A stretch of 64,000 nucleotides of DNA from a bacterium ADurb.Bin243 (GTDB lineage Bacteria; Muiribacteriota; UBA9980), in contig MWBZ01000013.1 of the NCBI GenBank assembly GCA_002069765.1, forward strand, positions 1 to 64,000, in the 5' to 3' direction. The notes beneath the pieces are model-generated. The model ran no database searches. It saw only the letters and a program-made list of their open reading frames with translations, and was not told where the DNA came from. The position numbers and the translations under genes were made by a program. Below are positions 25,987 through 53,172 of the stretch, in pieces (the first letter of the stretch is position 1; the number at the start of each line of letters is the position of its first letter).

Positions 25987-27735
25987 TTATTTATTGTGTA
26001 CCAGATAATAACTTTTGCCGTCAAACACGAAGTAATTCTTTACGCCTTCAACGGAAATATTATACACCTCGATCGTTTCTATCACTTCTTCATGAGCGTA
26101 TATCGCAACGAATTTATCCGCGCCACGGCCTTTAACGCGGTCTCCAATTTTAAGCTCCTTCACCTTTTTCCACTCGCCGTTTCCAAAAGCGAATGGGTGT
26201 TCGCCCGTAACTTTCAGGCCGTTAAGTTTAAAATAACCCGATACGCTTCTGTTGATTGTTTTACTTACAGCGGAATCTAATTCGCGGCCGCTCGTAAAAT
26301 CGTAAGATTTTACTTTATCGCCAGCCGCTATAGTTTCGATCGGCTTCAACGAACCGTCGGCCATAACTACGAGCGTGCCCGCGGCGAAGCAAACAGTCTC
26401 CGCCCTGACGAATTTAGTTCCGTTCCAGACATATTCGCCGGCGCGAAGTTCATTATTCGTTCCAGGTCCAACATCTGCATCAAGAACGTTCTTACTCAGT
26501 GTTGCAGTTGTAAAATCAGCCTCAACATCGCAGAAATGAACGGTTGCATTATTCTGCTGATATTTGGCGTTTTTATTAAATACGACTTTTGAACCCGCGG
26601 CGCCGGTTAGCATACCAAACACCCGCAATTGATCACCTAATCTTATAGTCAGCGTTTTGCCGGCCGCGATAGCAAGCGCCGATTCAATGAACAGATCACC
26701 ATTCTCCATATGCAATTCGTTCAAAGTCAGGTCGCTTTCAATAGTAACGGTTCCGCCACTTATTGTGATATTGCCTTTTATATTGTCCGCTATTGCAGGC
26801 GCGAGTTTAATTATCGCTGTATTATTGTTTTCAATTGTTAAATTTCCGCCGGCGGCGGTTACCGTTATATGGCCTGAAAAGCCATCAGCAAAAAACAAAA
26901 GGCGATTTCCCGTGTTATTGACTGTTATATGGCCGCCGCGCGGAAGTAATTTTGGGGTGCCGTCATCAAGAAGACTTGTGACGGTAAGCATGCCGCTTGC
27001 GTCAGCCGGCCCCTGAATGTATAAATGACCATTAACCGCTGCGCAATCAGCATTTGAAATAGTTATATCGGCAGTAGCCGCGGTTGAATTTTTAGTTATC
27101 TGTACGAGCCTGCCTAAACTATCGAGTTCAAACGTGTCGCCGGCGACAAGTTTTCCAGCACTGAGAATCGATTTAAGCAAATTTTTAATACCCGCAGTGT
27201 TACTTGATATATCAAAAACATACATTTTAGCGGAACCGCTTGCACCGGCCGCGATTTTTAAAAGGTTTCCGGATGTGAGCGCGGCGTTGCTCGCGGCGGC
27301 GGATGTAGCTGCTAAATCGATTCCCGCGCCGTCGGCATTAGCTTTTAAATTATATAAGTTGCTCACCGGCATAGCGCCTAAAACTTCATATACACTATAA
27401 GTCGTGCCGTCAGTGAGCCCGGTTATCTCCGTTACGCCGGCGTCGAGCGCCACTGATTGCTGCGCGGCTATTAAAAGTCCGGCGTCGGTCGCGGCGGGAA
27501 CGCTGGAATCAGCCGCGGTACCGTTAGCTATAACTTTTTGCCAGTTAGCGCCGTCGGCTTTTATCACATATTTTTTACCGGCGGTAAGTCCCGTAACTTT
27601 CGCGTATCCGGCCGTGCCGTGCGAACCGGCGGCTAACTTTATGCCCGGCATTGTCATTGAAATGATTTCGGAATAACCGTTATAAGCAGGACTTCCCGTA
27701 TCGCCGCTCGATTTGAGGCGTACGAAATAAGTCAT
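25987..27735 (-). CDS. C-terminal part of giant lipoprotein 1, with HINT domain (frameshifted from upstream part)
   Basis: This open frame (582 residues from its first ATG) continues the upstream giant lipoprotein after a one-base frameshift. The same frame remains open upstream of this ATG to about 27870 (residues KIQAHFLESTKPFTD...), and lengths agree with one missing base. Residues up to 445 are beta-rich ('GNITISGGTVTIESDLTLNE'), suggesting a beta-helix. From Cys449 it is a HINT (intein/Hedgehog autoprocessing) domain: N-terminal block 'CFAAGTLVVMADGSLKPIET', block B VTGEHPFAF with its TxxH histidine, and C-terminal 'YNISVEGVKNYFVFDG' ending VHNK-stop. HINT domains cleave at the N-terminal Cys and after the terminal Asn; only a single Lys follows here. 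Confidence 0.75.
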   Translation of the reverse strand: MTYFVRLKSSGDTGSPAYNGYSEIISMTMPGIKLAAGSHGTAGYAKVTGLTAGKKYVIKADGANWQKVIANGTAADSSVPAATDAGLLIAAQQSVALDAGVTEITGLTDGTTYSVYEVLGAMPVSNLYNLKANADGAGIDLAATSAAASNAALTSGNLLKIAAGASGSAKMYVFDISSNTAGIKNLLKSILSAGKLVAGDTFELDSLGRLVQITKNSTAATADITISNADCAAVNGHLYIQGPADASGMLTVTSLLDDGTPKLLPRGGHITVNNTGNRLLFFADGFSGHITVTAAGGNLTIENNNTAIIKLAPAIADNIKGNITISGGTVTIESDLTLNELHMENGDLFIESALAIAAGKTLTIRLGDQLRVFGMLTGAAGSKVVFNKNAKYQQNNATVHFCDVEADFTTATLSKNVLDADVGPGTNNELRAGEYVWNGTKFVRAETVCFAAGTLVVMADGSLKPIETIAAGDKVKSYDFTSGRELDSAVSKTINRSVSGYFKLNGLKVTGEHPFAFGNGEWKKVKELKIGDRVKGRGADKFVAIYAHEEVIETIEVYNISVEGVKNYFVFDGKSYYLVHNK

Positions 27736-27758
27736 GCTGATGGCAGCATTAACGCCCG

Positions 27759-30700
27759 TTATTTCAGCAAGCGCCTGCGTGTTATCGACAGCGGCATCAG
27801 GTTTATCAGTCCATGCGTCAGTAAACGGCTTCGTCGATTCAAGAAAATGCGCCTGTATTTTTGGAGCACCGCGGGGGCTGAGCCTTTAGCGGCAAATGTA
27901 ACATTAATATTGCCGTCGTCGCCGGCTTTTTTAGCTAGGCTGGTTTTTATAAAAAGTCTCTCAGGAACGGTATCGCCGTAATAATAACCATAGTTATAGT
28001 TATTCTCCGGCCAGGCGAGCATATCAAATTTCGCGCCGCCCTGATTTAGATTATTGAAAGTATTGCCTGTACCGATAAGGTTTGTAATCTGAGCGGAACC
28101 ATATTCAAAATTACCGCCATAATAATTAACACTGCCAGAATCAATAATATCGAAAAGATATTTGTTCGTCGCACCGCTGATTGTCAGATAAGGATCGCTA
28201 AAAGTATTTGCGGTATTCGACGAAAATAACGAAACTATAGAGCTTAATTCAGCCCCGCTGTATTTATGCTCGACCCTAACGCTTCCTTTAACGGTATTAC
28301 CGGTAAAAGTAATCGTGCCTGATTTTATAAAATAAATGGCCGGCCGTGTATTGGTTTTAGCTTCGATCGTATTATTTTTAATAGTAAGCCCGCTGCTGTT
28401 TGAAATGTACATAGTCCCTTCAGATGTGCCGCTGCTGCTATTCGATAAATGAAGGCCTTCAATAGTACTGTTGCTCAAATTTATTATATCTACGACAAGT
28501 TTATCAGCATTATCGAGTGCGATCGCAAAATTTTTAAGGGTAATATTATTCTGATCATATATTCGAAACCATTTTTTAAATAAAGTTTTATTATCACCAG
28601 TCGCACTCACGCCTGTCATTGTAAAATTCGGTCTGTTAATAACAAGTTTATTATCATATTCATCGGCATTAACGTAACTCGAAAAGTCGCCGCTTACAAT
28701 ATTAATCGTAGATATGGCATAGTCGGAAGCGCCCGGCATGCCATAAAGCGGCCGCTGGGGCGCATATAATTTCGGCGCTTTTATACTTGCAGGATTGGCA
28801 TTATGAAAAGCAATGTCAAATGCGTCTATACGCCCTGCAGAAGTTCCTTCGCGGGCTGATATCGTTACGATTTTATTCGGTTTTATACCGCTTAATGTTT
28901 CTTTAAATATGAAAGTTTTATCTATAGTATGATTACTGTTGTTATAGTTCGTCCCGCCGGCAACGACAAACGGCGCATTCGAGGTATCTTCTATAGCGGC
29001 GTTTAATGAAGCATTATCTTTCGCTATAACGATAGACGCGGCATCGGATTGAACGCCGCCGGCTATAGCTATGGCCTTCAGCGCGCCGCCGAGGCCGGGA
29101 GTGTCGAACGCTATCAGAATTTTCGCGTTCGCGTCGTATAAAGAACTCGCGGCGGTCGGCGTGCTTCCATCGAGCGTATAATATATTTTTGCGCCGGATG
29201 TCGAGCAGCTTAACGTAAGCTTGCCGGCATCTATTCCCGTGGCTTCACCAATAACCGGCGTAGCGGGTTTGGGCGGCGCCGGATACGCGATATTAAACAC
29301 AGCGGAAACCGCCGTCATGGAATAAAACATTCCCGATTTAAACGCGGCCGCTTTGACCTTTGTAGCTCCGATTCTATTAAGCGTGAAAGGCGCTTCGTAT
29401 TTTGTCGAAAGTTTAGAAGGTTCGCTGCCGTCAGTCGTATAATAAATTGCGGCGCCTTCGGTCGCGCAGCTTATCGTTACATTTGTCTGATAGTAAAAGA
29501 ATCCGCCGTTTGGAGCGATAACGGGAGTCGCAGCCATTTCGGTCGGAACTACATACGCCGCTTCGAGTACAATCGATTGCGACATTTCGGCTTTTACCGC
29601 TATAGCTTTAATAGTGAGCGGGCATGTTATTTCAACCGGCGCGGTATAAAGAATCGCGGTTTGAGGCGTTGGAACGCAGCCGTCAGTCGTATAATAAATT
29701 GCGGCTCCGGGCGTCGCGCAGCTAATCGCTACTTCGACGGTGTTTTCGTAAGAGCCTGGTTCTATCGAAACCGCAGGCGCAGAAACAGGCCATAGCACGG
29801 GATAATTAGCTTCACCAACCGGCGAATCGGTCATGCCGTCTTTAACGGCGAACGCTTTTATCATGGTAGTTTTTGTTATTACAACCGGCGCTTCATACTT
29901 CATACTTTCGCGTGAAGGTATGCTTCCGTCGAGCGTATAATAAATTATCGCGCCGGATGTCGCGCTCGTTATTTCGACCGACTGCGTCGAGGTGAATACC
30001 GTGCCGCCTGCCGGTATAAATACCGGAGTCGCCACAGGCAGCTTTATAATATAAACCGATCCGGTCGCAGGCGAATCTTTCATTCCGTCTTTAACCGCAA
30101 AAGCTTTTATAGTAGTATTTTCAAAAACCGTTATTGGTTTTTCATACCTAAGGCTGCCGCGCGAAGGCAAGCTGCCATCGAGCGTATAATAAATCGACGC
30201 GCCGGGCGTCGCGCATATTATTTCAACCGATTGCGTCGATTTATACGTTCCAGCGGCCGGGTTAAATTCGAGCGCGGCTACAGGAAGCGGTTCAGGTATT
30301 GTTATAAAGTATTCGGCGGAGCTTACCGTAGAATTTGTCATTCCGTGCTTCACCGCTATAGCCTTTATTGTAACGTTCGATGAAATTTCGAGCGTTCCAT
30401 TGTAAAGAATACCAGATTCAGCTGCCGGCATGGTCCCGTTTATAGTATAATAAATAGCGGCGCCTTCAGTCTTAGAAGAAAGGGCCACGCTCTGCGTGCC
30501 TGTGTATTGCCCGCCTTCAAGGCTGAATTCAGGCGCGTCAACCGTCTTTATGTTTATATAATGCGCTGCGGCTACATCTGAATCGGCCATATCGGATTTA
30601 ACTGTAACCGCTTTAAAAATTGTGGTTTTAGAGATAGTAACCGGCCCAGCATAGCGAGAGCCGTTCACTATCGAAGGAACGCTGCCGTCAGTGGTATAAT

Positions 30701-32825
30701 AAATGGAAGCGCCGGGAAGCGCCGGGGTTATTTCAACGATTATCTGCGTCTCAAAAGTTCCGGAAGCGGGTGTTATAACAGGCACAGGGGCTTTTTCGAG
30801 AGGCATATTCATAGTGTATAACGCCGTAGCCACGTCGGAATCGAGTATCCCTATTTTTGTCGCAATCGCCTTTAAATAGCACGATTTGACGAGAGTGATC
30901 GGAGTTGTATAAACCGCGCCGTTAGAGACCGACGGTTCGCTGCCGTCGAGCGTGTATCTGATGACCGCTCCCGCGGTAGCGCAAGTTAAAGAAACGCTTT
31001 GCGTCGTCGAATACAAACCGGCGGGAAGCGAAATAACCGGGCTGGCAGTTTTATCTGTCGCCAGCTCGATCGTGTATATGGCGACGGCCGGCGACGAAAT
31101 TTCCATTCCGACTTTATAGGCAATAGCAAGCGCTTTTAAAGAGGTGGAAACTGTAAATGGCCCGTTATATGTGATGCCGTGGTACCTGTCAGGTTTCGAG
31201 CCGTCGAGCGTATATTTAATGATCGCGCCTTCAGTAGGCGAAGTCAGCGTTACGCTTTGCGTAGAAAAATATGTACTGCCGACCGGATGAAAAACGGGTG
31301 GTAGGGATGTCGGTATTTGCATGAACTCGATAAAATAAAAAGTTGAACTGATGCCTGAAATGTTCTGGCCGGAAATTGCGACGGCATGTAAATGAGTATC
31401 GTTGTTTATAGTGATAGCGCCGTCATATACCTGACCTTTATTCAATGACGGATGGCTTCCATCGGTCGTATATTTAATTATCGCACCCGGGGTTTTAGTA
31501 GTCAAAGTTACGCTGATAGTCGATAAATAAGAGCCGCCGGGCACCGAAATATCAGGCGCCGCCACAAAAGTATTTCCATCGATAACGGTTTTACTGCCAT
31601 CGGTCGTATAGGTTACCCTTGCGCCGCGGTTACCGTATTTATCGTAAATATCGTCGATAACGAACGACACTTCCTTCTCCTCGGTAATATAAGGATTAAT
31701 ACTTAATTCGGCTGAAAATGAACTTTCAGAATTTTTTCTAATAATCGCCGGCCTGCCAAGTATCTTGATCGACGGAATGTTTATTAACGGCTTATTTGAA
31801 CGTATGTTAAGAGTTACGGTTCCGTCTCTTCCGACTAACGACGGCGATATTGATACGAATTCCAATACCGGCGGCGTTTTATCAACGGCTTCCTGCACGG
31901 TATTTTGTATAACGTTTGTAACTACAGACGCACTTGAACGCGCGTCTATTAATGTTTCAGATAATTGAATGCTGCGCGGAAGGTTTGCTTCGTTAAATAA
32001 GTTTATAACCTCGCCGTTATTAGAATTAAGAGCCGTTACATAAGAGTTTAAAATTGCGGCGGCGTCAGGCCTTGGACTGGATATGAAGGTATTTTTAAAG
32101 GACCTGTTTATAGCAGGCGAAGCAATTATAGTTGTAACCGTTTGAACTGCCCTTGAAAATTCATGAACGACGGCCGACCCGCCGACATTATTTGTGATTA
32201 TGGTATCGAAATCAGTCGGCAAATTCGGTTGTGTTTCACGAATTATATTTTCCTGAGTCTCTTCTTCCGGCGCTATATTTACCATTAAAAAATCTGTATT
32301 GATATTATTTGCGTTAGCCAGAAGAAAGCGCGAAGTTGACTGCGGATTTACTGAAAAACCGCGGACAATTATTTGACGAACTGATTCAGGCACTTCATTA
32401 TAAGACGGAATACGACCCGGCATAGCCAAAAGCAAATTATTTCCGCTTTCTCTTTCTGTTACTGCTATAAGCGGGGATATTCTCGATTCCTCAAGCGGAA
32501 TAGTTATATTAAATTGATTGCCTTTATACGATACTGATGCAATTTCTCTTGATTGCGTGAGATCATTGCTGTCAACGACAGTCAGCAAAAAGCGATCGTT
32601 AAATTCAGAATTTACCATTGCCCTTGAAGGAGAAAACGCTATTCCGCCGCCTTTAGACATATCAGGCAACGGCCCTTCTATAATAAATACTTTATCAGAA
32701 GACGGCCTGGGATTAGGATTGATTTGTTCATTCGCCGTATCTTCGTCGCATCCGCAACTGCCGAAAATAACGTAAAGAATAAGCATTACTAGAAAGATGA
32801 AATTCTTTGTGGCACTCGATTTCAT
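27759..32825 (-). CDS. Giant modular surface lipoprotein 1 (N-terminal 1655 or so residues genuine)
   Basis: Lipoprotein signal peptide with lipobox VIFGSC (Cys24). A roughly 280-residue N-terminal region is shared with the two other giant lipoproteins in this window ('EGPLPDMSKGG', 'ARFLL'-type 'STSRFLLANANNI', 'NNVGGSAVVHEFSRAVQTV'). An Ig-like module follows at about 315-410. Then come ten chitobiase/hexosaminidase-C-type repeats (about 412-1260), each with a 'YYTLDGSxPS'-like core, as in GASIYYTLDGSLPSRGS. Residues 1300-1650 are beta-helix-like ('NTIEAKTNTRPAIYFIKSGT'). The last 33 residues (after KGSAPA) are out of frame: the other frame continues sensibly into the HINT-containing part, so the true protein is about 2279 residues (25987-32825). 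ATG 32825 with GCGAGG site. Confidence 0.82.
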   Translation of the reverse strand: MKSSATKNFIFLVMLILYVIFGSCGCDEDTANEQINPNPRPSSDKVFIIEGPLPDMSKGGGIAFSPSRAMVNSEFNDRFLLTVVDSNDLTQSREIASVSYKGNQFNITIPLEESRISPLIAVTERESGNNLLLAMPGRIPSYNEVPESVRQIIVRGFSVNPQSTSRFLLANANNINTDFLMVNIAPEEETQENIIRETQPNLPTDFDTIITNNVGGSAVVHEFSRAVQTVTTIIASPAINRSFKNTFISSPRPDAAAILNSYVTALNSNNGEVINLFNEANLPRSIQLSETLIDARSSASVVTNVIQNTVQEAVDKTPPVLEFVSISPSLVGRDGTVTLNIRSNKPLINIPSIKILGRPAIIRKNSESSFSAELSINPYITEEKEVSFVIDDIYDKYGNRGARVTYTTDGSKTVIDGNTFVAAPDISVPGGSYLSTISVTLTTKTPGAIIKYTTDGSHPSLNKGQVYDGAITINNDTHLHAVAISGQNISGISSTFYFIEFMQIPTSLPPVFHPVGSTYFSTQSVTLTSPTEGAIIKYTLDGSKPDRYHGITYNGPFTVSTSLKALAIAYKVGMEISSPAVAIYTIELATDKTASPVISLPAGLYSTTQSVSLTCATAGAVIRYTLDGSEPSVSNGAVYTTPITLVKSCYLKAIATKIGILDSDVATALYTMNMPLEKAPVPVITPASGTFETQIIVEITPALPGASIYYTTDGSVPSIVNGSRYAGPVTISKTTIFKAVTVKSDMADSDVAAAHYINIKTVDAPEFSLEGGQYTGTQSVALSSKTEGAAIYYTINGTMPAAESGILYNGTLEISSNVTIKAIAVKHGMTNSTVSSAEYFITIPEPLPVAALEFNPAAGTYKSTQSVEIICATPGASIYYTLDGSLPSRGSLRYEKPITVFENTTIKAFAVKDGMKDSPATGSVYIIKLPVATPVFIPAGGTVFTSTQSVEITSATSGAIIYYTLDGSIPSRESMKYEAPVVITKTTMIKAFAVKDGMTDSPVGEANYPVLWPVSAPAVSIEPGSYENTVEVAISCATPGAAIYYTTDGCVPTPQTAILYTAPVEITCPLTIKAIAVKAEMSQSIVLEAAYVVPTEMAATPVIAPNGGFFYYQTNVTISCATEGAAIYYTTDGSEPSKLSTKYEAPFTLNRIGATKVKAAAFKSGMFYSMTAVSAVFNIAYPAPPKPATPVIGEATGIDAGKLTLSCSTSGAKIYYTLDGSTPTAASSLYDANAKILIAFDTPGLGGALKAIAIAGGVQSDAASIVIAKDNASLNAAIEDTSNAPFVVAGGTNYNNSNHTIDKTFIFKETLSGIKPNKIVTISAREGTSAGRIDAFDIAFHNANPASIKAPKLYAPQRPLYGMPGASDYAISTINIVSGDFSSYVNADEYDNKLVINRPNFTMTGVSATGDNKTLFKKWFRIYDQNNITLKNFAIALDNADKLVVDIINLSNSTIEGLHLSNSSSGTSEGTMYISNSSGLTIKNNTIEAKTNTRPAIYFIKSGTITFTGNTVKGSVRVEHKYSGAELSSIVSLFSSNTANTFSDPYLTISGATNKYLFDIIDSGSVNYYGGNFEYGSAQITNLIGTGNTFNNLNQGGAKFDMLAWPENNYNYGYYYGDTVPERLFIKTSLAKKAGDDGNINVTFAAKGSAPAVLQKYRRIFLNRRSRLLTHGLINLMPLSITRRRLLK

Positions 32826-32846
32826 AAAAAAACAACCTCGCTATTC

Positions 32847-32902
32847 AAAAAAAATTAAACAATTTTATAAAAAAATTAAATAATTTTATAAAAAAATTAA
32901 AC
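32847..32902. repeat. AT-rich 21-bp tandem repeat in the leader of giant lipoprotein gene 1
   Basis: About 2.6 copies of an AAAAAAATTAAACAATTTTAT-like unit, 21 bases long (two helical turns), lie between the predicted -10 box and the ribosome binding site. The repeated A-runs are in helical phase and may bend the DNA or form a regulator site. Confidence 0.6.
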
Positions 32903-32909
32903 AGAACTT

Positions 32910-32938
32910 AATATAGCCTAAAAAATTTTAAAATGCAA
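32910..32938 (-). promoter_or_regulatory. Promoter of giant lipoprotein gene 1
   Basis: On the minus strand: TTGCAT (32933-32938), 17-base spacer, TATATT (32910-32915), 85 bases upstream of the ATG. Confidence 0.55.
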
Positions 32939-33007
32939 GCTAAATGAATTATAATTCATTAACGTCGGCTTTTAAAATATCCGATAAAATCAAGCCTCGG
33001 ATGGCTA

Positions 33008-33530
33008 TTACGCAGAAGGCAGATCGACGGTTAATAAGCTGCCTGCGCCCGGTTCGCTAGCAGCGGAGACGGCGCGCCCATTAGTTTAACGAAATCGCGG
33101 CATATAAGAAAGCTGAGGCCCGATCCTGATTCGCCTGCGATGCCGAATTTAATGGCCGACTTGTTGTCGAGCGTAAACAGTTTTTTGAGCGAAACGGCGT
33201 CTATGCCGATCCCCGTATCGATGACGCGGATTATCGCCCTGCCGCCGTTTTCGCCGTTCACGACTCCGGAAATTCTTATGGTCCCGCCGTCGGACGTAAA
33301 TTTGACGGCGTTAGAGAAGAGGTTGCGGATTATAGTCGAAAATAGAGTGGGATCGGCGTGAACGCACAGCCCGCCGTTGAACGCTTTCTGCGCTGCCATC
33401 TTAACATGCCGAGCTCGAAGGTGCCGGGATACATCTTCTTTGACCGGCTGTAAAATATGAATATCAGCCCCAGAACAAGAGATTCGATGAGCGCGACAAA
33501 AACTATTGTTTGCAGGTTTAGAAAATCCAT
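33008..33530 (-). pseudogene. Decayed 7TM histidine kinase (internal deletion plus frameshifts)
   Basis: The first 42 codons (33405-33530, MDFLNLQTIVFVALIES...) match the start of the intact 7TM kinase at 54300-55721 position by position, ending at the shared G-M. The sequence then jumps, in another frame, to the kinase ATPase domain: 'VHADPTLFSTIIRNLFSNAV', 'IDTGIGI' and 'GESGSGLSFLICRDF' correspond to the intact 'RADRRMFSTILRNLVNNAI', 'VKDNGVGM' and 'GETGTGLGLLICREF'. About 310 codons (all other membrane helices and the HisKA domain) are missing. Near 33060 a second frameshift is needed to recover the C-terminal tail (SEPGAGSLLTVDLPSA-stop). It is clearly a dead paralogue. Confidence 0.85.
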
Positions 33531-33637
33531 AACTCGAATTAACTTTCAGATCTAAATTTCAGGCTCTTTTTCATTTCGCGCGGATAACTTTCGGCGTGCT
33601 ACCAAGCTTAAACCTGATTGATCTTCGGAGCGGACAT

Positions 33638-33941
33638 TCAGAAAACGCCTCCCTTGCAGTACGCGCTTTCGGCGGTGAGCCGGCCCACGCACTTCGCCAT
33701 CAGGTCGGCGCTGGCAAGGCCCACGCCGGCGCCTCGCGGGCAGGACGAAACGAGGTAATTGCCGCCGGAAAAGATCGCCTTTAGGCTGCTTAATTGATCG
33801 GCTGGCCGTCCACTATGAGTAAATGTGGCCAGGCATCAAACTTGAAAGGCATTACAAACCTCTTCCGTCACCATTGTGAGGGGTGATACCGAGTGTATAG
33901 TCTTCAGCCATAAGCAATTTTAAGGTGCCGTTCTTCATGAC
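33638..33941 (-). pseudogene. Unassigned gene remnants in graveyard region
   Basis: Three protein-like stretches occur on the minus strand in shifting frames: 28 codons from 33941 (MKNGTLKLLMAEDYTLG...), 20 codons overlapping its stop (MPFKFDAWPHLLIVDGQPIN), and a 53-codon stretch ending at 33638 with 'KAIFSGGNYLVSS' and 'RGAGVGLASADLMAKCVGRL'. Composition looks coding (GC-rich third positions, no long biased runs), but no intact frame joins them. They look like the decayed 3' half of one gene. I do not recognise the family with confidence. Confidence 0.4.
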
Positions 33942-33987
33942 AGCCGACCACCTTTATTTTTAATACAAACCATTTAAAAGCATATCA

Positions 33988-34041
33988 CAAAAAAACAAGA
34001 GTATCAATATTTTACTTAAATAGTAAAGATTGACACTCTTT
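33988..34041 (-). terminator. Long inverted repeat, terminator of the cupin gene
   Basis: AAGAGTATCAATATTTTACT and AGTAAAGATTGACACTCTT form a stem of about 19 bp with two imperfections. On the minus strand it is followed by a T-run (A-run 33988-33995 on the plus strand). The right arm also contains the -35 box of a plus-strand promoter. Confidence 0.7.
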
Positions 34042-34059
34042 TCGGATGACTTTTATAAT
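34030..34059 (+). promoter_or_regulatory. Orphan consensus promoter, plus strand
   Basis: TTGACA (34030-34035), 18-base spacer, TATAAT (34054-34059). Both boxes are perfect. No plus-strand gene follows: downstream are 120 AT-rich non-coding bases with a T7 run (about 34150-34157), then the antisense strand of the cupin gene. Confidence 0.55.
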
Positions 34060-34182
34060 GAAACGCATTTTAAGAGAGCGACAATTTAAAAAGACTTGCC
34101 AGACCGATCTGAAATAATATTATTCGAATTATGATAATTTAAGTTATATTGTTTTTTTCGATGTTTGTCAACCGTAATTTTA

Positions 34183-34509
34183 TCAAAAAAAAACGCAAAC
34201 CCACACGCACGGCGGCTCCGCGCTCGTATATTCGACGCGGTGACGCCGGCGCGCCTCTATCAGAATGTGATCGCCCGCCTTCAAAACGAGCGAAGAGCCG
34301 TCATCGAAGGCCAGGCGCGCCTCGCCCTGAACGAGCAGCACCCACTCGTTCTCGGGCTGGTCATACCAGAACCCTTCAGGCGACGCCTGGCCGGCTGAAA
34401 GAATGCGCTCGATGCGAACGCGATGGACGCCGGCCGGCAATGTCGATTCGTGGATAGTTTCGATGATCTCTTCGGGGATGGACACCGGCATGTTGAAAAT
34501 GTTTTCCAC
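34183..34509 (-). CDS. Cupin domain protein
   Basis: This 108-residue protein is a single conserved-barrel cupin. It has the first motif region 'WYDQPENEWVLLVQGEARLA', glycine turn 'KAGDHILIEARRRHRVEY', and an intact C-terminal strand (VWVCVFF). Metal-type ligands (His/Glu pattern) are partly present, Glu in NEW and His in RRHRVEY, so a metal site is possible. It starts at GTG (34507-34509), 4 bases from AGGAGG. It is the only intact gene in the graveyard between giant genes 1 and 2 and follows a broken amidohydrolase, which was probably its operon partner. Confidence 0.82.
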   Translation of the reverse strand: MENIFNMPVSIPEEIIETIHESTLPAGVHRVRIERILSAGQASPEGFWYDQPENEWVLLVQGEARLAFDDGSSLVLKAGDHILIEARRRHRVEYTSAEPPCVWVCVFF

Positions 34510-34519
34510 AATACCTCCT

Positions 34520-35250: not shown

Positions 35251-35582
35251 CTTCTCGATTTAATAAAGTGTATATTTTTTTATTCTACTATAAACCGTAC
35301 GTTATATTTATAAAAATCTTACATGCAGTCATATAATAGAATTGATTTTAATAGAACAATTTAAATCAATTAAATAAAAAATGCAACAGTTTTTATTATG
35401 TTTTTAATGTTTTTTTTAGTACAAATAACTCAAAAAAGGGCCTCATGCTTTTAACGGCAAAAGGCCCTTATATCATTTTAAACGGTTGAATCGCCGGCTG
35501 GCTTATATTTTTATAAACATTATCAGGGCGGGCGGAGAAGCAATCCATTTACGCTAAAAAAACGCTCCCCGCCGCGCCTGAA
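35251..35582. other. AT-rich intergenic stretch
   Basis: No gene. It contains the upstream region of the dead amidohydrolase with an inverted repeat AATTGATTT (35340-35348) / AAATCAATT (35363-35371), the terminator of giant gene 2 (35432-35469), and a GC-rich imperfect inverted repeat at about 35527-35578. Confidence 0.6.
35432..35469 (-). terminator. Intrinsic terminator of giant lipoprotein gene 2
   Basis: Stem AAGGGCCT (35436-35443) / AGGCCCTT (35462-35469). On the minus strand it is followed by a T6 run. It lies 114 bases after the stop codon. Confidence 0.8.
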
Positions 35583-43385: not shown

Positions 43386-43436
43386 TATCCAACCTCCATT
43401 AGAGTTCATTTATTAAAAATTTCACGCGCATAAAGG

Positions 43437-43464: not shown

Positions 43465-46400
43465 TCATCGCGCCATGAACTCCATCTTGTTGACGTTATA
43501 AAGCTTTCCGTTTACATCAGCCATAACGTAATACATGTCGTATTCAGCCCAGCGGGTCAGTTTAGTGAAGAGTATATGCTGATCCGCAGCCCAATAATCT
43601 GTACTGAATTCCGGTGGCTTGATAGCACCCTTATCCGGGGCCGCTTTTCCTTCCGCGTTCAATCCGTTTTTAATCTGCTCCGCAGAAGGGACTTTCGATC
43701 CTCTCGGCACCGCGACCGCGTAAACGGTTCCTGGCGAATTCAAGCTGACTCCCCAACGGCTTTGAGCATTCCAGTTGACTATAGAATACGGGTGGCCCGG
43801 AAGCATTATCGGCTCGAGTCCTCTGGTAATCTGATTACTTGAAGCTACAGATGAAACCATATTATTATCGCTCTCGATCGCCGCGAAAAAATAATATTGA
43901 GTAGATTCGGAAAGGCCGGAAACGGCTATGGTTTTTTCAGAATTCGCTTCAAGATCCAGCTCGCCTTTAAAACCATTAGCTACGGAGCCTCCGGAAGCGT
44001 CCGCGCCGTTTTTAAGCTGTTCGAGCGAAGGCGCGGAGGAATTTTTAGAAACTATATAATATGCCCTGCCGGAAGAGTCCGAACTGATTTTTACGCTCAT
44101 CGAATTTTTTGTAAGGCTGTTGGAATCATTTGGAATCGATATTTTAAGAATAGGCGACTTCCAGTTTATTTTGACTGGTTTATCCATCAAATTTCCATTC
44201 GCGTCTTCAGCCACAGCATAAAGAATGTAATTACTTTGTGGTTCCATTCCCGGCATATCCATATACATCATCATCATCGGATCGACCATCATCATATCTA
44301 TCGACTGCGTCATTTCAGTGCCGGCGGTCATGTCGATTTTCATCACGGAAGGCCTTGCACGGTAATAACTCCAACGCCCGTCCTTAACTTCAGTTGAAGT
44401 CGGCGGCGCCGGAACGGGCTCGAACGAATACAAATTGAAGCCTGATATATAAACCTTGCCGGCCTCGCCTGTTTTCACCCTGATATTAATTTTCATGCTG
44501 TAGCTTTCGCCGCTCTGTGAAGCCGCCGGATAACCAGACGAGAAGGCGATCCCCTTTGAAAGCGTCGTTACGCTGATTTTCTGGGGCTCTTTCTGCATTA
44601 TCATGTTCGAATCTTCGATAATCAGGAAAATGTCATATGCGCTGGAAACGTTTAATTCTTTGACTTCAAATGAAAGCTCGGTTGACGCGGTTATATCAAC
44701 CGCGCCGGAAGCCGTTTTAACTGCGCCATCAAAATTTCCGGCCTTTACGTTTGCGGCCGGCAACGAAGCTATGCCTGCGGAACCAGGAAAAACCATATAG
44801 TAAAGCTTTCCGCCACGGTCTGATTTCGCCGTGACTTTGAAGCTCGACGAAGACGACGCTTCGGCCTTTGGATAGCCAAGGCTCCATGATGGGCCTGAAG
44901 ATATTATGGTAAAAGGATTCCTGGACGGCGAAGTGGAGCGGTTGCCCACTTTATCTACCGCGCTTACGCTCACTTTTGCGGTGGAAAGATCTACCGAAGG
45001 CACTTTCCAGTCATAAGTTCCGCTGTTGGCCAGGCCGGTTTCAACTGTCGTCCAGTTAAGGCCGTTATAAAAAGCTATCGTTACAGGCGCAGGGTCCAGG
45101 CCGCCGGAATCGGAAGCTGACCATTTCAACGTATAGGTTGACCCGCCGATAAGCTTCTCTGCGCCGTCATTGAGAGAAAGCAAGGCGACCGCGGGCGGCG
45201 TGGTGTCTATCGAAAAAGTGTTTCCGCCCGTTATTTCTATTTTGCCGCCCATATCGTCCAGCAGACTGACAATAGCCGTGCCGTCGATAAAATCGACGCC
45301 GTTATTATCGTTTATGACATAATCATAGGTCCATATTTTTCTGCTGGCGCCCTGCGTCATCCATTTCTGCATAACATCAGCTTTTCCGGGCTGCTCGATG
45401 CTTATGCGCGGCCCCCCAGCGCCGGAATAATCATCTTTGAACACAGCCGTCACGGTCATTTTCCCAGCCCGGGCCGGATTGGAGCCGAACGTAAGAACCG
45501 CGTAATTCGCGACCGCCGTTCCTATAAGGAATGTCGAATTATAAGGGCGCTTTGAAATGTTTCCTGCCGCGTCGGTCACAGGCGAAAGTAAAACCATTGC
45601 CTTGCCGTCTTTGAATTCCTTCAGATCTGAAGATTTAACGGTGTATTCATAGGTCCAGACATCGGAAGAAGCGCCGCGCGTCATTACCGCGTCAACGAGC
45701 TCGTAGGAACCCTGCTGGAAGATCGAAATATAAGGCGCGCAACCCTCCTGCAATAATTCGGAATATTTCGCGGTAATCGTCAGTTTTCCGGCCGGGGCGG
45801 GATTTGAGCTGTACGAAAGTTCCACCGAAGGCATCCGGGTGTCTATGGTAAAAGTCCTGTTGGCGGGCTGTAAAAACAACCTGCCGGATTCGTCCATGGC
45901 GTTTGAGATGGAAACGCTCGCCTGGCCGTCGATATACGCCTGGCCGTCTTCGGGTTTTATCGAATACTCATAAGTCCAGACGCGGCGGCTCGAGCCTATA
46001 GCCATGGGCTGATCTTTAACGTCGCCGTAACCCGGCTGATCGATAAATATCTTCGGCGTCTGGCCTGTTTTTATGTCGTTAGCGAAAGAAACTATTACGG
46101 TCAGCTTCCCGGCCCTGAAAACATTGGCTTTCGAAGCGGCCGGGCTCCTGTCAGGCGCGCCCTTAGACATATTCTGCGAAACGGCGGGCGTGAAACTGTA
46201 ATTTATTGCAGCTGCCGGCGCGGATGTGTTTATGACAAACGAATCGTTCTGCGCGGCCTGCGAGACATTTCCGGCCGGATCGGATACGTCCGACAATTTA
46301 ACCGTGGCGACTCCGTCTATATAGGCTGAACCGTCAGCGGCCTTTACTGTATAATCGTAATACCAGCTGGCCGGATTGGATGAGTCCTGAGTCATGGCCG

Positions 46401-49400
46401 CTCCAGTAATGTCTGCGCTGCCGGGCTGATTAATGGATATTTTGGGTACGCTCCCCTTAGCGAGGGTTTCGGAATAAAAGGCCGTTATTCTCATAACGCC
46501 TTCTGCGGCTGGATTGGCGCTATATTTAAGAACGGCCGAAGGGCGGGTGGTATCTATTATAAAAGCTGCCGTCGTTTTCGAGCTCATATTGTTAGAGGAA
46601 TTCGCGGCGGTGACTTCCAGGATATAGCTGCCGTCATCCGTTATCTTAGTAGAATTGACTATAGCCGAAGGCTGATTTCCAAATTTAGTCAAAATCGCGG
46701 ATATTTTTGCGCCGTCAATTTCTTTCCAGAAAGGCGTCACGGCCGCGTTGTAATACTTTCCGTTTTCTACGCCGCTAACTTGAGGCGCGGCGGGACCTTT
46801 TTCAATCTTAACGCCGGTTCTCGTGAAATTGACTGAAGATTTTACCGAGAGACCGTTAGAAACTTTAACAACCGTCAGTTCAAGCGTATAAAAGCCGTCT
46901 TCGGTTATGGAATTGCCATTTTTATATTCTTCGGCGATGCCGCCTGTTTTAGATATTTTAGCCGAATATGAAAAGCCCTGATTTTCGATCCAGGTTGCCA
47001 TAGTGGCGGCGTCTTTTGAAACAATCGATATGGCCGGCGCTTCAGGGGCCGACCGATCGACGACAAAAGACAGAACGGTTTCATTTGAAAGGTCGTTGGC
47101 GCCGTAAGCCGTAACTGAAAGCATATATCTGCCATTTTCGGCCACGATAGAACCTTTAATGAAATCTACCGCCGAAGCCCCGTCTTTTGAAAGTTTCGCC
47201 CTGACGGAAACGCCGGATGGCTCTTCCCATAAAGGCTTAACGGGAGAATTATAAATTTTCAGATTTTCTACGCCGGAAACGCGAGGCGTCTCAGGAATGC
47301 TTTTATTGATTATAAAAGATTTAGAAGATTTACTGGAAAGGCCGTTAGAAACTTTATACGCGGTAACTTCTATTTTGTAAGAACCGTCTTCAAGCAATGT
47401 AGTGCCGCTTGCGAAGGCCCTCGGGCTTCGGCCGTCGCGATAAATTAAAGCGGCAGTTTTAACACCTTCCTGCGTTTTCCATTCAATGGAAACCGGCTTA
47501 GGGGTTGTCGATCCGGTTTCGACGCCTAATATAACAGGCTCTTCAGGCGGATTTTTATCGATCGTAAAATTTAACGCCGTCTTAGATTTCAAGCCGTTAG
47601 ACAGCTTCGTCGCGGTCACCTCGAGAACATAACGGCCGTTTTCCGTTATCGGAAAACCGTTGCCGTAACTGGTTATAACATCATCGTTCTTCTTTATCGA
47701 AGCGGAATAGTAAACGCCTGCGATTTCCTTCCAGGAAAGGCTCAGGGTCGAAGCCGAAACGCCATCAGGTGAAATGCCTTCGATAACAGGGACCGCGGGA
47801 AGCGAAGTGTCGACTTTAAATGAAATGGCGGCCCTGTTGGTTAATCCGTTCGATTCCTTCCTGGCGGTCACTTCAATATCGTAAGACCCGTCGTTCGAAA
47901 TTTTTGAACCGTTAACGAATTCTATAGGGTTTCCGCCATTTTTCGTAAGCCTGGCGTAATAAGAAACGCCGGGTTCCTCCTGCCATGAAACGGCCGCTTC
48001 CTTTGAATTGACCGAACCCGCAACGACGCCAGTGAATTTAGGGGCTAAAGGGCCGGCGTCGAAGCCATCCGGCATTCTGCTAAAACGCATGGACGATTTA
48101 CTCTGCATGCCATTTTTTGTTTTAACGGCCGTAACTTCTACAAAGTATTTGCCTTCCTCGTTTATGGGAGAGTCTTTCTGGTATGAAACCGATTCCACGC
48201 CATTTTTTGAAATTGTAGCGCTTGTCACGCATCCTTCCTGCTCGTTCCAACCTACCAGCGTGGGCCCGTTTATGGGCTGTTTTATAAGGCCGCCATAAGA
48301 AGGGGCCGGCGCGCCTCCGCCGGAGCCGTTTTTAAGCTCTATAACAGGGGAAGCCGGCGATTTTTTATCGATCCTAAATTTGACAGCGGATTCGCTCGTA
48401 AGGCCGTTGGCTTTTATCGCGGTGACCGCGATTCTGTAATCTCCGTCCACGCTGACGGGAGACGCGCTTAGATAATCATTTAAAGCGCCGGATTCTTTGA
48501 CTATAAATGCCTTGTAAACGATTCCAGGCTGAAGCTGCCACGCGGCGCTTACCGCATAACCATAAACGCCGCCGTCGGTTATGCCGCTAATGACGGGCGC
48601 GTCAGGTTTTTTTCTATCGATCGTAAAATAAATAGTCTTCTTATTTGAAGTTTTTGTAACAGGATTGGTTACACTTAATTCAAAGGCGTAAGCGCCTTCT
48701 TCTACGAGCTTCGCGCCTTTTTTGTATTCCCGGGCGGCAGAGCCGTCTCTGGAAATTTTCGCCGTGATAGACATCGATTCTACATCGTCCCATGATATTT
48801 CAACGTCTTTAGCTATTGAATCGCCTTCGCTGATCCCTTTTATAACAGGAACCGCCGGAGCCGATCTGTCGATTTTGAATTTTTTTGAAACACTCGCCGT
48901 TTTACCGTTAGCTTCCCTCGTAGCTACTACTTCGAGATAATAGGTTCCTTCGACGGTTATAGGCGAACCGTTTTCATAAGCCAGAGTCATGGTACCGTCT
49001 TTTACAAGTTTGGCCGAATATTTGACGCCCTCGGATTTCTGCCAGTATAATTTAACGTCGTCCGCCGTTACCATTCCATTTTCTATTCCCATTATATATG
49101 GAGCGTCGGGAGCTTTGGTATCCACGGTAAACTTGATTTTAGAAGAAGCGCTCAAACCGTTCAATAGTTTTTTAGCGGTAACTTCCAGTTCATATTCTCC
49201 GTCCTCGGCCACCGCCGAATTTTTTTCATACGCAGTTTCCTGGCGCTGAGTTTCATTTACATTAACATTGCTTCTCAAGTTATAAAAACGGTAAAAATAA
49301 AACTGATAATATAACGGGTCGTGATAATCTCCAGGATACATGCCCATTCCCGGATACATCCCCGGATAACCGGGAAAGTAATGGCTATCAGAGTTAGATT

Positions 49401-52400
49401 TGTTTAATTGCCCTGTTTTAGTGAGTTTAGCGGTAGTTTCACAGCCGTTTTGCTCGTTCCATGAAATCTTAGCTTCGGCCGCGGTTACCGCGCCATCGTT
49501 AATGCCCGCGATCACAGGGGCATAAGGGCCCTTTTTATCTATAGTAAACGAAATAACGCTTTTAGCCGAAAGCCCGGTCGCGGGATCGACGGCTTCTACC
49601 TCAGCTAAAAAAGACCCTTCGTCTTTTATAATCGCGCCTTTTTTATACTCCAGAAACTCTCCGCCGCTTCGTTTCAGCCTTGCCGAAACTATAGCGCCTT
49701 CGATCTCTTTCCAGCCGAGCGATACGTCGGAGCCTGTAACCGCTCCATTTTCAACGCCCGTTACTTGCGGGGATTTCGGCCCCAATACCAGCCCGGTTAA
49801 AGTACGATTAAAAGAAGCCTTCGAAACGATTTCAGTTTTCGTATCCTTGCGTCTGGCCGTTACAGTAACCGTATAAATGCCTTTCTCGCTAACCGGCGTT
49901 TCACGAATGTAAGATGAAGGCGCACCGTCGTCCCTGGACAATGTAGCAAAATATTCGATTTTATCCTGTTCTTCCCAGCTTATGCTTGTCATGCCCTTGC
50001 CGTTATCGTAAATGGAAATAACCGGCGCATCCGGGGCGTACCTGTCGATTACAAAAGAAAGTTTTGAGGATTTTTTTCGGCCATTCGGCTTTGCCGCCGT
50101 GAGGGTTACGACATAACTGCCGTTAGCGTTAATTAAAGTATTTTTAACATACGGTTCAAACCGGCCTGAATCTTTTGAAATTTCGGCTGTAATAGTAGTT
50201 TTCTTTAAACCGCCTGTTTTAGAAAGTCCGGCCGCGCCAGGTTGATTTACGATATCTTCCCATGAAATTCTTACTTCGGAAGAAGTTACCGCGCCGTCAG
50301 CCACGCCAGAAATTACAGGCGCATCGGGTTCGGCCTTATCGATCTCGAATTCTATAGAGCGGCTGTTCAAAGCGCCGCCGGCATTGTTTTTAGCGTAAAG
50401 AGTCAGTTTATAAAAACCCGATTCGGATATAAGCGCCTTTTTGATATATTCGACTGGTTCTCCGCCGTTTTTGGAGAGCTTGGCGGTAAGAGTCACCCCG
50501 TCGATATCCTTCCACTCCAGGGCGACATCTTCGGAAACTATATCGTCGTTATAAACGCCTGTAATGTAGGGCACATCGGGCAAAGCAGAATTCACTGCGA
50601 ACGATATCGACGAAAACGCAGTAACGCCGTTTCTTTCATTTGTAGACAAAAGTTCCAGCGTATATTCGCCGTCTTCGTTTATTTCATAACCGCTTACGTA
50701 ATCCGATTTCAACCCGTTTTTTTTAACCAGCTTAGCAGTGCTTTTCGTCCAGCGTTCGTCCTGCCAAAAAAGCGTTACCGGCTTTGCGGAAACTTCACCA
50801 GTGCCGATTCCCAATATGGCAGGCACCGCCGGCAAACTTTTATCGATAACGAATGACAAAGAAGCCTTATTAGAAGTATTGTTCGCGGTTTTAGTAACGC
50901 CGACTTCGAGCGTATAAGAACCTTCTTCGGATAAAATCGTGTTTTTAGAATATTCAGAATTTTGATTATTCTTTAACAGGCGTGCCTTACTCGTAACGCC
51001 TTCCTGCTCATTCCACGAAAGCGAAACATCTTTAGCGGTGATGGCGCCGTCATTTATGCCAAGTATAACCGGAGGAGCCGGCGGGGCGTTATCGTTTTTA
51101 ATCTCATAAAACTCTGAAACCACTTCAGAATCGAGCATATTCTCTTTCACCGCGACCGCCTTCAGGGTAGTCGATTGAGCGAGAGTTATGGGCTCGGAAT
51201 AAACCACTCCGTTAGAAGCGGAAGGCGTTGTTCCGTCGGTAGTGTATATTATTTTAGCGCCTTTGGCCTGCGCGATTATCTTAACTTGAAACCGATTGTA
51301 ATTAGAGTATTTTCCACCCTGAGGATAAAAAACCGGCGGCGCGGCGTTTTCGAGTACCGGGCCTACTATATTAACATCATAAAAACCGCTGACGACGGCC
51401 GAATCCTGCATACCGTCATTAATTACGACAGCCTTTAAGGTTACGGGCTCCATAATAACGATAGGCGCGGTGTAAACCATGCCGTTCGTAAATGACGGAA
51501 CTGTACCGTCGAGAGTATATTTAATGGTCGCGCCGTTTAACGAGCTTACTATCGCTACGGTCTGTCTTGATATAAACTTGCCCGGCGCCGGGTTAAAAAC
51601 AGCGGCAGGGGCCGTAACGACGGGCGCTTTAACAACATATACCGCCTGATTCACTATTGATGAAGCCGCGTCTTTTACCGCCACCGCTTTTATGGTGGTA
51701 TCGGCCGAAACTATTACCGGCGAGGAAAAAATCGTGCCGTTGGAAGCCGACGGCTCGCTGCCGTCTATAGTGTAGTAAATATCAGCGCCTGGAGTGCGCG
51801 AAGCCATCGTCACGACCTTCGACATTTTATAAACGCCGGTCGGCGGGTCGAAAACAGGCGGATATATAGAAGTAATACCGTCATTGATAACGGGCTTTTT
51901 ACCGTCGGTCACATCGGTTACTGGCGGTGATGTCTTGCCGTTTTCGCCGACGAGATTGTCTATTTTGAAGGTCACGTCTTTTGGATCAGAATCGCTAACG
52001 GTAGTATTTGCAACATAAGTCGTGCCGTCGATTTTAGTGACGGTCACTTCACGGTCATAAATCACTACTTTAGGCGGAAATATAAGAAGCTTACTAGTGG
52101 TAAACGCGAGCTGCAATTCATCTCCGACATTTAGCGTTCTGGGCGTAATCGTAACTGAAGTAACCGAAGGCGGCGCGTCATCTGCATTTACGCCGGCATT
52201 TTTAGCGCTTCCGTCGACGACCGCTACGCTCGTGCGGCCGTCTATCTTGGTGCCGGCTATTTCTATGCTCGTATTGATCGAAAGGTCCGAGGCCTTCTGT
52301 TGCACCTTTGCGTTCTTAAGCGTAAGCACGTAATCGGATATTACGCCCGACGCGCTTGGCACGACGCTTTTCTCACGTGTATTTTCGAATATCGAATGTT

Positions 52401-53172
52401 TTTCGGCCGCGCTGAGTTCAGCGGTTACAAGCACGGTCTTAATAGCGTCAACCGCCTTGGACATTTCACGTATTACATCCGCCCCTCCGACTTTGTTTTC
52501 AATAACCAAATCGGTGAGAGTTTTTTCTTTAGCGCTAAGTACGCGAACTACAACTTCCTGCGACTGCTCGTTGCTGCCGAGCGTTATCAGGGGAACGGTT
52601 ATTTCCATTTTATTATCATTGGCAAGAACCGCGCGCGCGGTTGACTCGGAATTGATAAGAACGCCTTTAACGTAAAGTTTTTTAACGTCTTTAGGAATCT
52701 CAGAATATGCCGGTACCTGACCCGGAATGCTCGACAGGACTACCTTATTCAATATCTTACTCTTGATTGCTATAAACGGCGTCTTTTTACCGGTTTCTAT
52801 ATTGATCGTCGTTTTGTACTTATACCTGTACTGCACGTCGTCGCTCGCTTCGATGACCACCGGCGCAAGCTCTTTCGACATCGATGGATCGTCCCGGTCT
52901 ATAACGGCTATACTGAATTCTTTCAAATCGCCGAATTCGGCGGCGCGTTCGATTCCCGACGGCGCGCCCGGAACGGGAACTGTTGTATTTTCAGCTATAT
53001 CGTTTGGAATGGGACCTTCGATTATCATCTGCTTTTCGGCAACGCCGGTCTGAGTTCCACCGCCGGGAACAGCCGAGCTTCCGCCGTCGCCGCAACCGGA
53101 AATAATAAAAAATGTGAATAAAGAAAAAATCAATGCAACCAAAAAATAATGATTACGAGACATTTTACGCAT
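43465..53172 (-). CDS. Giant modular surface lipoprotein 3 with 17 tandem 85-residue repeats
   Basis: 3235 residues. Lipobox IISGC (Cys27). Residues 30-330 are the N-terminal region shared with giants 1 and 2 ('EGPIPNDIAEN', 'IENKVGGADVIREMSKAVDA'), followed by an Ig-like module and three chitobiase/hexosaminidase-C-type repeats (about 437-687). From about 695 to 2205 there are 17 tandem repeats of roughly 75-100 residues. Their pattern is P-x-x-P-x-I-x-G-I-x-x-G ... W ... L-x-K ... G-x-Y-x-L-x-V-x-A ... F-x-I-D, a beta-sandwich-like period. Four roughly 105-residue repeats ('ISIEQPGKADVMQKWMTQ' type) cover 2205-2650, then further Ig-like and 'SGYP' modules. No enzyme motif. ATG 53172 with GGAG at 8 bases. 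It lies directly downstream of a three-gene sensor operon. Inferred stalk-like surface protein or adhesin. Confidence 0.85.
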   Translation of the reverse strand: MRKMSRNHYFLVALIFSLFTFFIISGCGDGGSSAVPGGGTQTGVAEKQMIIEGPIPNDIAENTTVPVPGAPSGIERAAEFGDLKEFSIAVIDRDDPSMSKELAPVVIEASDDVQYRYKYKTTINIETGKKTPFIAIKSKILNKVVLSSIPGQVPAYSEIPKDVKKLYVKGVLINSESTARAVLANDNKMEITVPLITLGSNEQSQEVVVRVLSAKEKTLTDLVIENKVGGADVIREMSKAVDAIKTVLVTAELSAAEKHSIFENTREKSVVPSASGVISDYVLTLKNAKVQQKASDLSINTSIEIAGTKIDGRTSVAVVDGSAKNAGVNADDAPPSVTSVTITPRTLNVGDELQLAFTTSKLLIFPPKVVIYDREVTVTKIDGTTYVANTTVSDSDPKDVTFKIDNLVGENGKTSPPVTDVTDGKKPVINDGITSIYPPVFDPPTGVYKMSKVVTMASRTPGADIYYTIDGSEPSASNGTIFSSPVIVSADTTIKAVAVKDAASSIVNQAVYVVKAPVVTAPAAVFNPAPGKFISRQTVAIVSSLNGATIKYTLDGTVPSFTNGMVYTAPIVIMEPVTLKAVVINDGMQDSAVVSGFYDVNIVGPVLENAAPPVFYPQGGKYSNYNRFQVKIIAQAKGAKIIYTTDGTTPSASNGVVYSEPITLAQSTTLKAVAVKENMLDSEVVSEFYEIKNDNAPPAPPVILGINDGAITAKDVSLSWNEQEGVTSKARLLKNNQNSEYSKNTILSEEGSYTLEVGVTKTANNTSNKASLSFVIDKSLPAVPAILGIGTGEVSAKPVTLFWQDERWTKSTAKLVKKNGLKSDYVSGYEINEDGEYTLELLSTNERNGVTAFSSISFAVNSALPDVPYITGVYNDDIVSEDVALEWKDIDGVTLTAKLSKNGGEPVEYIKKALISESGFYKLTLYAKNNAGGALNSRSIEFEIDKAEPDAPVISGVADGAVTSSEVRISWEDIVNQPGAAGLSKTGGLKKTTITAEISKDSGRFEPYVKNTLINANGSYVVTLTAAKPNGRKKSSKLSFVIDRYAPDAPVISIYDNGKGMTSISWEEQDKIEYFATLSRDDGAPSSYIRETPVSEKGIYTVTVTARRKDTKTEIVSKASFNRTLTGLVLGPKSPQVTGVENGAVTGSDVSLGWKEIEGAIVSARLKRSGGEFLEYKKGAIIKDEGSFLAEVEAVDPATGLSAKSVISFTIDKKGPYAPVIAGINDGAVTAAEAKISWNEQNGCETTAKLTKTGQLNKSNSDSHYFPGYPGMYPGMGMYPGDYHDPLYYQFYFYRFYNLRSNVNVNETQRQETAYEKNSAVAEDGEYELEVTAKKLLNGLSASSKIKFTVDTKAPDAPYIMGIENGMVTADDVKLYWQKSEGVKYSAKLVKDGTMTLAYENGSPITVEGTYYLEVVATREANGKTASVSKKFKIDRSAPAVPVIKGISEGDSIAKDVEISWDDVESMSITAKISRDGSAAREYKKGAKLVEEGAYAFELSVTNPVTKTSNKKTIYFTIDRKKPDAPVISGITDGGVYGYAVSAAWQLQPGIVYKAFIVKESGALNDYLSASPVSVDGDYRIAVTAIKANGLTSESAVKFRIDKKSPASPVIELKNGSGGGAPAPSYGGLIKQPINGPTLVGWNEQEGCVTSATISKNGVESVSYQKDSPINEEGKYFVEVTAVKTKNGMQSKSSMRFSRMPDGFDAGPLAPKFTGVVAGSVNSKEAAVSWQEEPGVSYYARLTKNGGNPIEFVNGSKISNDGSYDIEVTARKESNGLTNRAAISFKVDTSLPAVPVIEGISPDGVSASTLSLSWKEIAGVYYSASIKKNDDVITSYGNGFPITENGRYVLEVTATKLSNGLKSKTALNFTIDKNPPEEPVILGVETGSTTPKPVSIEWKTQEGVKTAALIYRDGRSPRAFASGTTLLEDGSYKIEVTAYKVSNGLSSKSSKSFIINKSIPETPRVSGVENLKIYNSPVKPLWEEPSGVSVRAKLSKDGASAVDFIKGSIVAENGRYMLSVTAYGANDLSNETVLSFVVDRSAPEAPAISIVSKDAATMATWIENQGFSYSAKISKTGGIAEEYKNGNSITEDGFYTLELTVVKVSNGLSVKSSVNFTRTGVKIEKGPAAPQVSGVENGKYYNAAVTPFWKEIDGAKISAILTKFGNQPSAIVNSTKITDDGSYILEVTAANSSNNMSSKTTAAFIIDTTRPSAVLKYSANPAAEGVMRITAFYSETLAKGSVPKISINQPGSADITGAAMTQDSSNPASWYYDYTVKAADGSAYIDGVATVKLSDVSDPAGNVSQAAQNDSFVINTSAPAAAINYSFTPAVSQNMSKGAPDRSPAASKANVFRAGKLTVIVSFANDIKTGQTPKIFIDQPGYGDVKDQPMAIGSSRRVWTYEYSIKPEDGQAYIDGQASVSISNAMDESGRLFLQPANRTFTIDTRMPSVELSYSSNPAPAGKLTITAKYSELLQEGCAPYISIFQQGSYELVDAVMTRGASSDVWTYEYTVKSSDLKEFKDGKAMVLLSPVTDAAGNISKRPYNSTFLIGTAVANYAVLTFGSNPARAGKMTVTAVFKDDYSGAGGPRISIEQPGKADVMQKWMTQGASRKIWTYDYVINDNNGVDFIDGTAIVSLLDDMGGKIEITGGNTFSIDTTPPAVALLSLNDGAEKLIGGSTYTLKWSASDSGGLDPAPVTIAFYNGLNWTTVETGLANSGTYDWKVPSVDLSTAKVSVSAVDKVGNRSTSPSRNPFTIISSGPSWSLGYPKAEASSSSSFKVTAKSDRGGKLYYMVFPGSAGIASLPAANVKAGNFDGAVKTASGAVDITASTELSFEVKELNVSSAYDIFLIIEDSNMIMQKEPQKISVTTLSKGIAFSSGYPAASQSGESYSMKINIRVKTGEAGKVYISGFNLYSFEPVPAPPTSTEVKDGRWSYYRARPSVMKIDMTAGTEMTQSIDMMMVDPMMMMYMDMPGMEPQSNYILYAVAEDANGNLMDKPVKINWKSPILKISIPNDSNSLTKNSMSVKISSDSSGRAYYIVSKNSSAPSLEQLKNGADASGGSVANGFKGELDLEANSEKTIAVSGLSESTQYYFFAAIESDNNMVSSVASSNQITRGLEPIMLPGHPYSIVNWNAQSRWGVSLNSPGTVYAVAVPRGSKVPSAEQIKNGLNAEGKAAPDKGAIKPPEFSTDYWAADQHILFTKLTRWAEYDMYYVMADVNGKLYNVNKMEFMAR

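Follow-up and report, generated by a model that had tools for sequence, protein, structure and literature searches.

In chitobiases, CHB_HEX_C_1 is a single accessory domain. The LapA-like RTX adhesins, such as AhLap of Aeromonas hydrophila, have an N-terminal retention domain, an Ig-like extender and distal ligand-binding domains that include carbohydrate-binding modules (PMC12077191). BIL domains have no +1 nucleophile and yield mainly cleaved products (PMC7664689). Features reminiscent of these systems occur in three giant lipoproteins encoded in the window, which is the whole stretch of 64,000 nucleotides that was analysed. A search by lineage name found no useful literature on this lineage. 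Our analysis indicates, with reasonable though not high confidence, that the giants belong to a family of paralogues, very large modular proteins with a lipid anchor, each composed of a base, a repeat stalk and one of a varied set of tips.

The three genes lie at 25987-53172 of the window, all on the minus strand, as are the parts of them whose coordinates are given below. Giant 3 (3235 aa) occupies 43465-53172, giant 2 (2608 aa) occupies 35583-43409 and giant 1 (1688 aa) occupies 27759-32825, with a continuation of 582 aa in another frame at 25987-27735. A lipobox-like motif can be seen by inspection at the start of each giant, as the initial annotation had claimed. The order of transcription on the minus strand is a kinase/regulator trio (56853-53520), giant 3, giant 2, a stretch of 2.8 kb and giant 1. 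The trio (53520-56853, minus strand), which is directly upstream of giant 3, encodes an OmpR-type response regulator, a histidine kinase and a receiver-kinase hybrid (Pfam) and is syntenic in two congeners, namely G001 and the sister species G003 (corresponding record DIVV01000064.1, "bacterium UBP16_UBA6123"). Its DNA identity there is 66-70%, versus 81-88% for giant 3 itself, and its conserved position suggests that it may regulate the giant cluster. The stretch between giants 2 and 1 (32826-35583) contains short or broken ORFs, which on a reading of the sequence alone include apparent histidine kinase and amidohydrolase-like fragments as well as a small ORF resembling a cupin; the corresponding region of G003 spans about 0.9 kb. 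A GH64 beta-1,3-glucanase domain (Pfam E 2e-41) is found near the giants in a lipoprotein-like protein encoded at 58304-60235 on the plus strand. LptF/LptG are also encoded within the window (Pfam), thus the genome is probably diderm.

The base is the part that defines the family. It comprises mature residues 24-328 of giant 1 (31842-32756; family profile match of 371 bits), residues 33-388 of giant 2 (42246-43313) and residues 27-341 of giant 3 (52150-53094; family profile match). The N-terminal regions of giants 1 and 3 are 29% identical over 333 aa (BLASTP E 1e-43), and that of giant 2 is matched to those of giants 3 and 1 at E 1e-3 to 5e-10, depending on direction and partner and with the signal peptide included. 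The bases of all three align with those of eight further ORFs of the same genome as one 321-position profile, so that the N-terminal regions, which the initial annotation had taken to be shared, did not prove unrelated on profile comparison. The giant 2 base is the weakest profile member of the three, and its orthologue in G001 aligns with it collinearly. A profile of the mature base built from 34 aligned members gave 17 matches in the same genome and 14, 9 and 15 in three congeners, counts that include a few matches that are partial, internal to larger proteins or cut by contig ends. Thus, the family is larger than the three proteins noticed at the outset. The base tree contains well-supported orthologue clades, one of which places giant 1 with L028 and L011, and gene duplication within one genus is the best explanation for the growth of the family. 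Assemblies from the genus (four genomes) are broken into 250 to 730 contigs, so that several tips are truncated.

In the remaining 36 genomes of a 40-genome phylum set, the mature-base profile had no match over its full length; a single weak match (E 8e-6) was the only one outside the genus. Matches of an earlier profile in most relatives within the phylum were rejected as mainly similarity of signal peptide and Gly-linker, and all but that weak match disappeared when the mature base was used. The E 8e-6 match, together with the weak matches of the earlier profile, points to remote homologues in a family of shorter lipoproteins (f5). A profile of 18 f5 lipoproteins, from which the Gly-rich linker had been removed, aligned with the initial ~120 base columns (probability 92%), and ten column-shuffled control profiles gave at most 0.1%. 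The beta part thus appears to be a lipoprotein module of long standing in the phylum, and the helical part appears to be genus-specific as far as tested within the 40-genome set. Occurrence outside the phylum was covered by a close-relative pattern scan of contigs (alignment A2) alone, which returned two congeners only. The base was not found in viral contigs or plasmids, the 34 members had no credible Pfam or NCBIfam match, and there were 0 matches to PDB sequences.

An AlphaFold2 model of the base from eight sequences (mean pLDDT 81, pTM 0.84) consists of a beta domain and, after it, a helical region; a model that also took in the Ig-like module reached 76 and 0.73. Foldseek found nothing in the PDB for the base model at E ≤0.001 (best E 0.087, base alone). 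The best viral-structure match to the model was set aside, as it was not mapped to query residues and lower-ranked IPT/TIG proteins suggest that it reflects the Ig-like module and not the base. Since the base model is moderate, a new fold is possible but not established. The initial annotation had called the N-terminal region undescribed, and this is borne out by the lack of a match in Pfam, NCBIfam and PDB sequences or folds, with the qualification that remote relatives of its first ~120 residues exist in the phylum. Nor is the base a known widespread domain with a constant tip, as it has no known match and its tips vary. A lipobox pattern was matched in most full family members; in L015, L039, L040 and L043 the base is internal or behind another N-terminal domain, with no recognised lipobox, and thus the term "anchoring base" does not apply to every member. 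In such members, for example L039:5861-12598, the base would not be the membrane-proximal part.

The base is followed by Ig-like modules and then by tips of many types. In giants 1, 2 and 3, and also in L011, an Ig-like module of the PPxxxxVxISP type is next to the base, as had been described for the giants; most other family members pass directly from the base to the CHB_HEX_C_1 repeats. In giant 1 this module (PPVLEFVSISP...; 31564-31872 by alignment, boundaries approximate) corresponds to the AlphaFold2 beta domain at model residues 297-383. The stalk consists of 1-18 tandem CHB_HEX_C_1 repeats across the family. The initial counts of 10, 3 and 3 for giants 1, 2 and 3 were confirmed with all copies above the Pfam threshold, at 29046-31541, 41232-41948 and 51115-51846 respectively (Pfam and genome scan coordinates). 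A PADLOC match to DUF499 on these repeats was rejected as a sign of defence, because it reflects the repeats themselves.

All three tips named by the initial annotation are present, with two reservations, namely that the lectin is below the Pfam cut-offs and the HINT is in a separate open frame. In giant 1, a post-stalk region (27759-29045; 82% identity to the G003 orthologue) leads to a frame break, after which come a segment before the HINT (26395-27735) and the C-terminal HINT itself (25987-26394), which matches PT-HINT above the cut-off (E 2e-8). No other PT-HINT was found in this genome by profile scan. Giant 2 ends in an L-type lectin-like domain (35607-36218; 61-62% identity in G003) with E 5e-19 and scores of 69.6 bits against a cut-off of 78.3 (PF18483) and 22.5 against 24 (PF03388). 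Its EFDTYRN...D...H motif (VEFDTYRNAPYDSQAH) resembles the metal site of L-type lectins in its E, D, N, D and H residues, the E being D in the G003 orthologue. Giant 2 also contains SGYP-type modules (37140-38177, boundaries approximate) in common with giant 3 (BLASTP of giant 2 to giant 3, E 1e-14). The distal part of giant 3 (43465-51114) is made up of Ig-like repeats, with Big_13 above threshold, and of SGYP-type modules at the end, and is conserved over its whole length in G003 and G001; the Ig-like/SGYP-type terminal modules have no Pfam name.

The claim that different tips occur on a common base holds for the wider family. In addition to the HINT and lectin, Pfam identified PEBP, BspA-type LRR_5 with SbsC_C, PD40 propellers, Kelch propellers, FGE-sulfatase with LRR_5, Shr-like HID and carboxypeptidase-regulatory-like modules, and several tails are unnamed, including one of ~697 residues common to four orthologues. 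Nearly all PEBP matches in the genus are in large base-bearing proteins (one match is a short fragment). A protein of ~2590 aa that is conserved in the genus (L012:7611-15410, L057, L058) has the reverse order, with PEBP followed by a partial base match.

In the explanation favored here, the giants would be exported as lipoproteins and tethered by the N-terminal cysteine. The base of ~290 residues, modelled as a beta-sandwich and a helical bundle, would sit at the membrane and the stalk of 1-18 Ig-like CHB_HEX_C_1 repeats would project outward. The C-terminal modules would make the contacts, with glycan binding by the lectin and presumed ligand binding by propellers, LRRs and PEBP, and the HINT would act by self-cleavage. 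Recombination within the repeat stalk would give new members their tips or alter them, at times even at an orthologous locus. Surface display, as suggested in the initial annotation, is the most likely reading; indications of an outer-membrane location are the lipobox, the types of domain present and a genome that is probably diderm. The lipobox, being the only established anchor feature, would in a diderm also suit a scaffold that faces the periplasm, held on the inner leaflet of the outer membrane or on the inner membrane and not reaching outside. This alternative is considered doubtful, because great length (up to 3200 residues) and tips such as lectins, LRRs and propellers are typical of cell-exterior proteins.

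The exchange of tips was assessed by taking orthologue groups from the base tree and comparing them end to end. Tips were kept in giant 3, in the L014 group (four genomes), in L015/L043, in the L017a group (three genomes), in L054/L045 and in L048b/L051. For example, giant 3 is 83-88% identical to its orthologues over the whole distal part. Such stability in most groups is what would be expected from ordinary domain accretion, in which an N-terminal domain is common by descent, the tips slowly diverge and there is neither a platform nor any real exchange. However, two loci have an abrupt switch of tip on a collinear base and stalk. In the first, L050 (G002) and L051 (G001) are collinear at 70% DNA identity for 7.8 kb, covering the upstream gene, base and stalk; the tip that follows is PEBP in L050 but an Fn3-like tail in L051 and in L048 (G003), and collinearity returns immediately after the stop codons. 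In the second, L046 (G003) and L047 (G001) are 82% identical over 1021 aa and about 1 kb upstream and fall to background from residue ~1030, the tips being propellers versus FGE-sulfatase and LRR. As L047 runs to the end of its contig, this replacement was tested on one flank only. In addition, PEBP tips are found on two distant base clades. Accretion as the whole account is therefore unlikely, and the "exchangeable tips" of the initial annotation are retained as an infrequent event, replaced at two orthologous loci and kept at most others, giant 3 included.

The switches could also be assembly chimeras, since the short-read metagenome bins are fragmented and the genes repeat-rich, but this is improbable for two reasons. 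First, the L050/L051 replacement has orthologous DNA on both sides, the ORF is uninterrupted and the alternative tip was found in two independent genomes. Secondly, the L047 junction occurs once in G001 and has at most 17 exact bases in common with the other G001 loci examined, thus repeat-driven misassembly is unlikely there as well.

Divergence between species is not restricted to the tips. In giant 2 the base, and not the lectin tip, differs most between the two species: the base is 29-48% identical to G003 (residues 100-400 just 29-39%), and most of the remainder is 78-92% identical. The same base is 65-75% identical to its G001 orthologue. G003 keeps the lectin and does not have the ~195 residues before it. 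Giant 1 varies in the segment immediately preceding the HINT, whereas the HINT itself is 92-96% identical in G003; residues ~150-450 of the continuation ORF fall to 25-48%. Both the giant 2 base and the segment before the giant 1 HINT may reflect either replacement or fast divergence.

The reading frame of giant 1 changes near 27780 (within 27740-27820), close to C5 and A5 runs. Because of this frameshift, the HINT is in a separate ORF from the lipoprotein signal. The G003 orthologue (L028:2898-9875) is a single intact ORF of 2325 aa that spans both halves, thus giant 1 in the window is either broken or affected by an assembly error. Five family members are interrupted (the window at ~27780, L013 at ~13370, L044 at ~2110, L052 at ~637 and L011 at 7099). 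In L011 the cause is an in-frame stop and in the other four a shift of frame, and some of the breaks are near A5-A7 runs. The breaks in about five members may represent decay, assembly error or phase variation.

The HINT contains the catalytic Cys1 (CFAAGT), TxxH (TGEH) and terminal HN motifs, and in both species it ends the ORF at VHNK-stop with one residue (Lys) after the Asn and no +1 nucleophile. By the precedent of BIL domains (PMC7664689) it is expected to cleave rather than splice, and, given the lack of a downstream nucleophile, cleavage at its own Cys is the most likely reaction and would release or transfer the preceding segment. That giant 1 is instead a relic of polymorphic-toxin proteins, or is related to them, with a pretoxin HINT at the delivery end, is very improbable despite PT-HINT being the best Pfam match and the preceding segment being hypervariable, because the VHNK-stop in both species leaves no downstream toxin module and no adjacent immunity gene was recognised beside giant 1. 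A more ambitious version of the preferred reading, in which the giants form a genus-specific display platform with a structurally new base, recombination at stalk repeats swaps the tips across loci and across species and the giant 1 HINT covalently transfers, or else releases, the hypervariable segment that precedes it, is put forward only tentatively and as unlikely.

These results are of use for several reasons. First, an uncultured genus gains a recognisable, probably cell-surface system of ~15 giants per genome. Secondly, the base domain can be used to collect the tips attached to it. Third, the locus at which a tip was replaced between two intact flanks neatly illustrates the evolution of modular adhesins among lipoproteins, as opposed to RTX or cell-wall-anchored proteins. 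Lastly, the terminal HINT of giant 1 poses a directly testable question of autoprocessing.

Compared with described systems, the giants are familiar in their parts. Their stalk repeats are clear members of CHB_HEX_C_1 (PF13290) and differ from other proteins with this domain in having 1-18 tandem copies in the middle of the protein. The giant 2 C-terminus spans nearly the full L-type lectin domain (PF18483/PF03388) and keeps EFDxxxN...D...H, but is below both cut-offs and is thus a distant member. The giant 1 HINT resembles BIL/Hedgehog HINT domains in having Cys1, TxxH and HN and no +1 nucleophile (PMC7664689), and differs in that it ends a lipoprotein-type giant, with Lys as the sole residue beyond the Asn. 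The LapA-like RTX adhesins likewise have a conserved N-terminal part, an Ig-like stalk and variable distal domains (PMC12077191). However, the giants have a lipobox anchor, an unrelated base and CHB_HEX_C_1 repeats; in Pfam scans they contained no recognised RTX family or type I secretion signal, and they gave no Pfam match to an N-terminal retention domain of the LapA type, having a lipobox in its place. The architecture of the giants is of the known kind seen in RTX adhesins, with an anchor, an extender and a ligand-binding tip (PMC12077191), built here on a lipoprotein anchor with an undescribed base.
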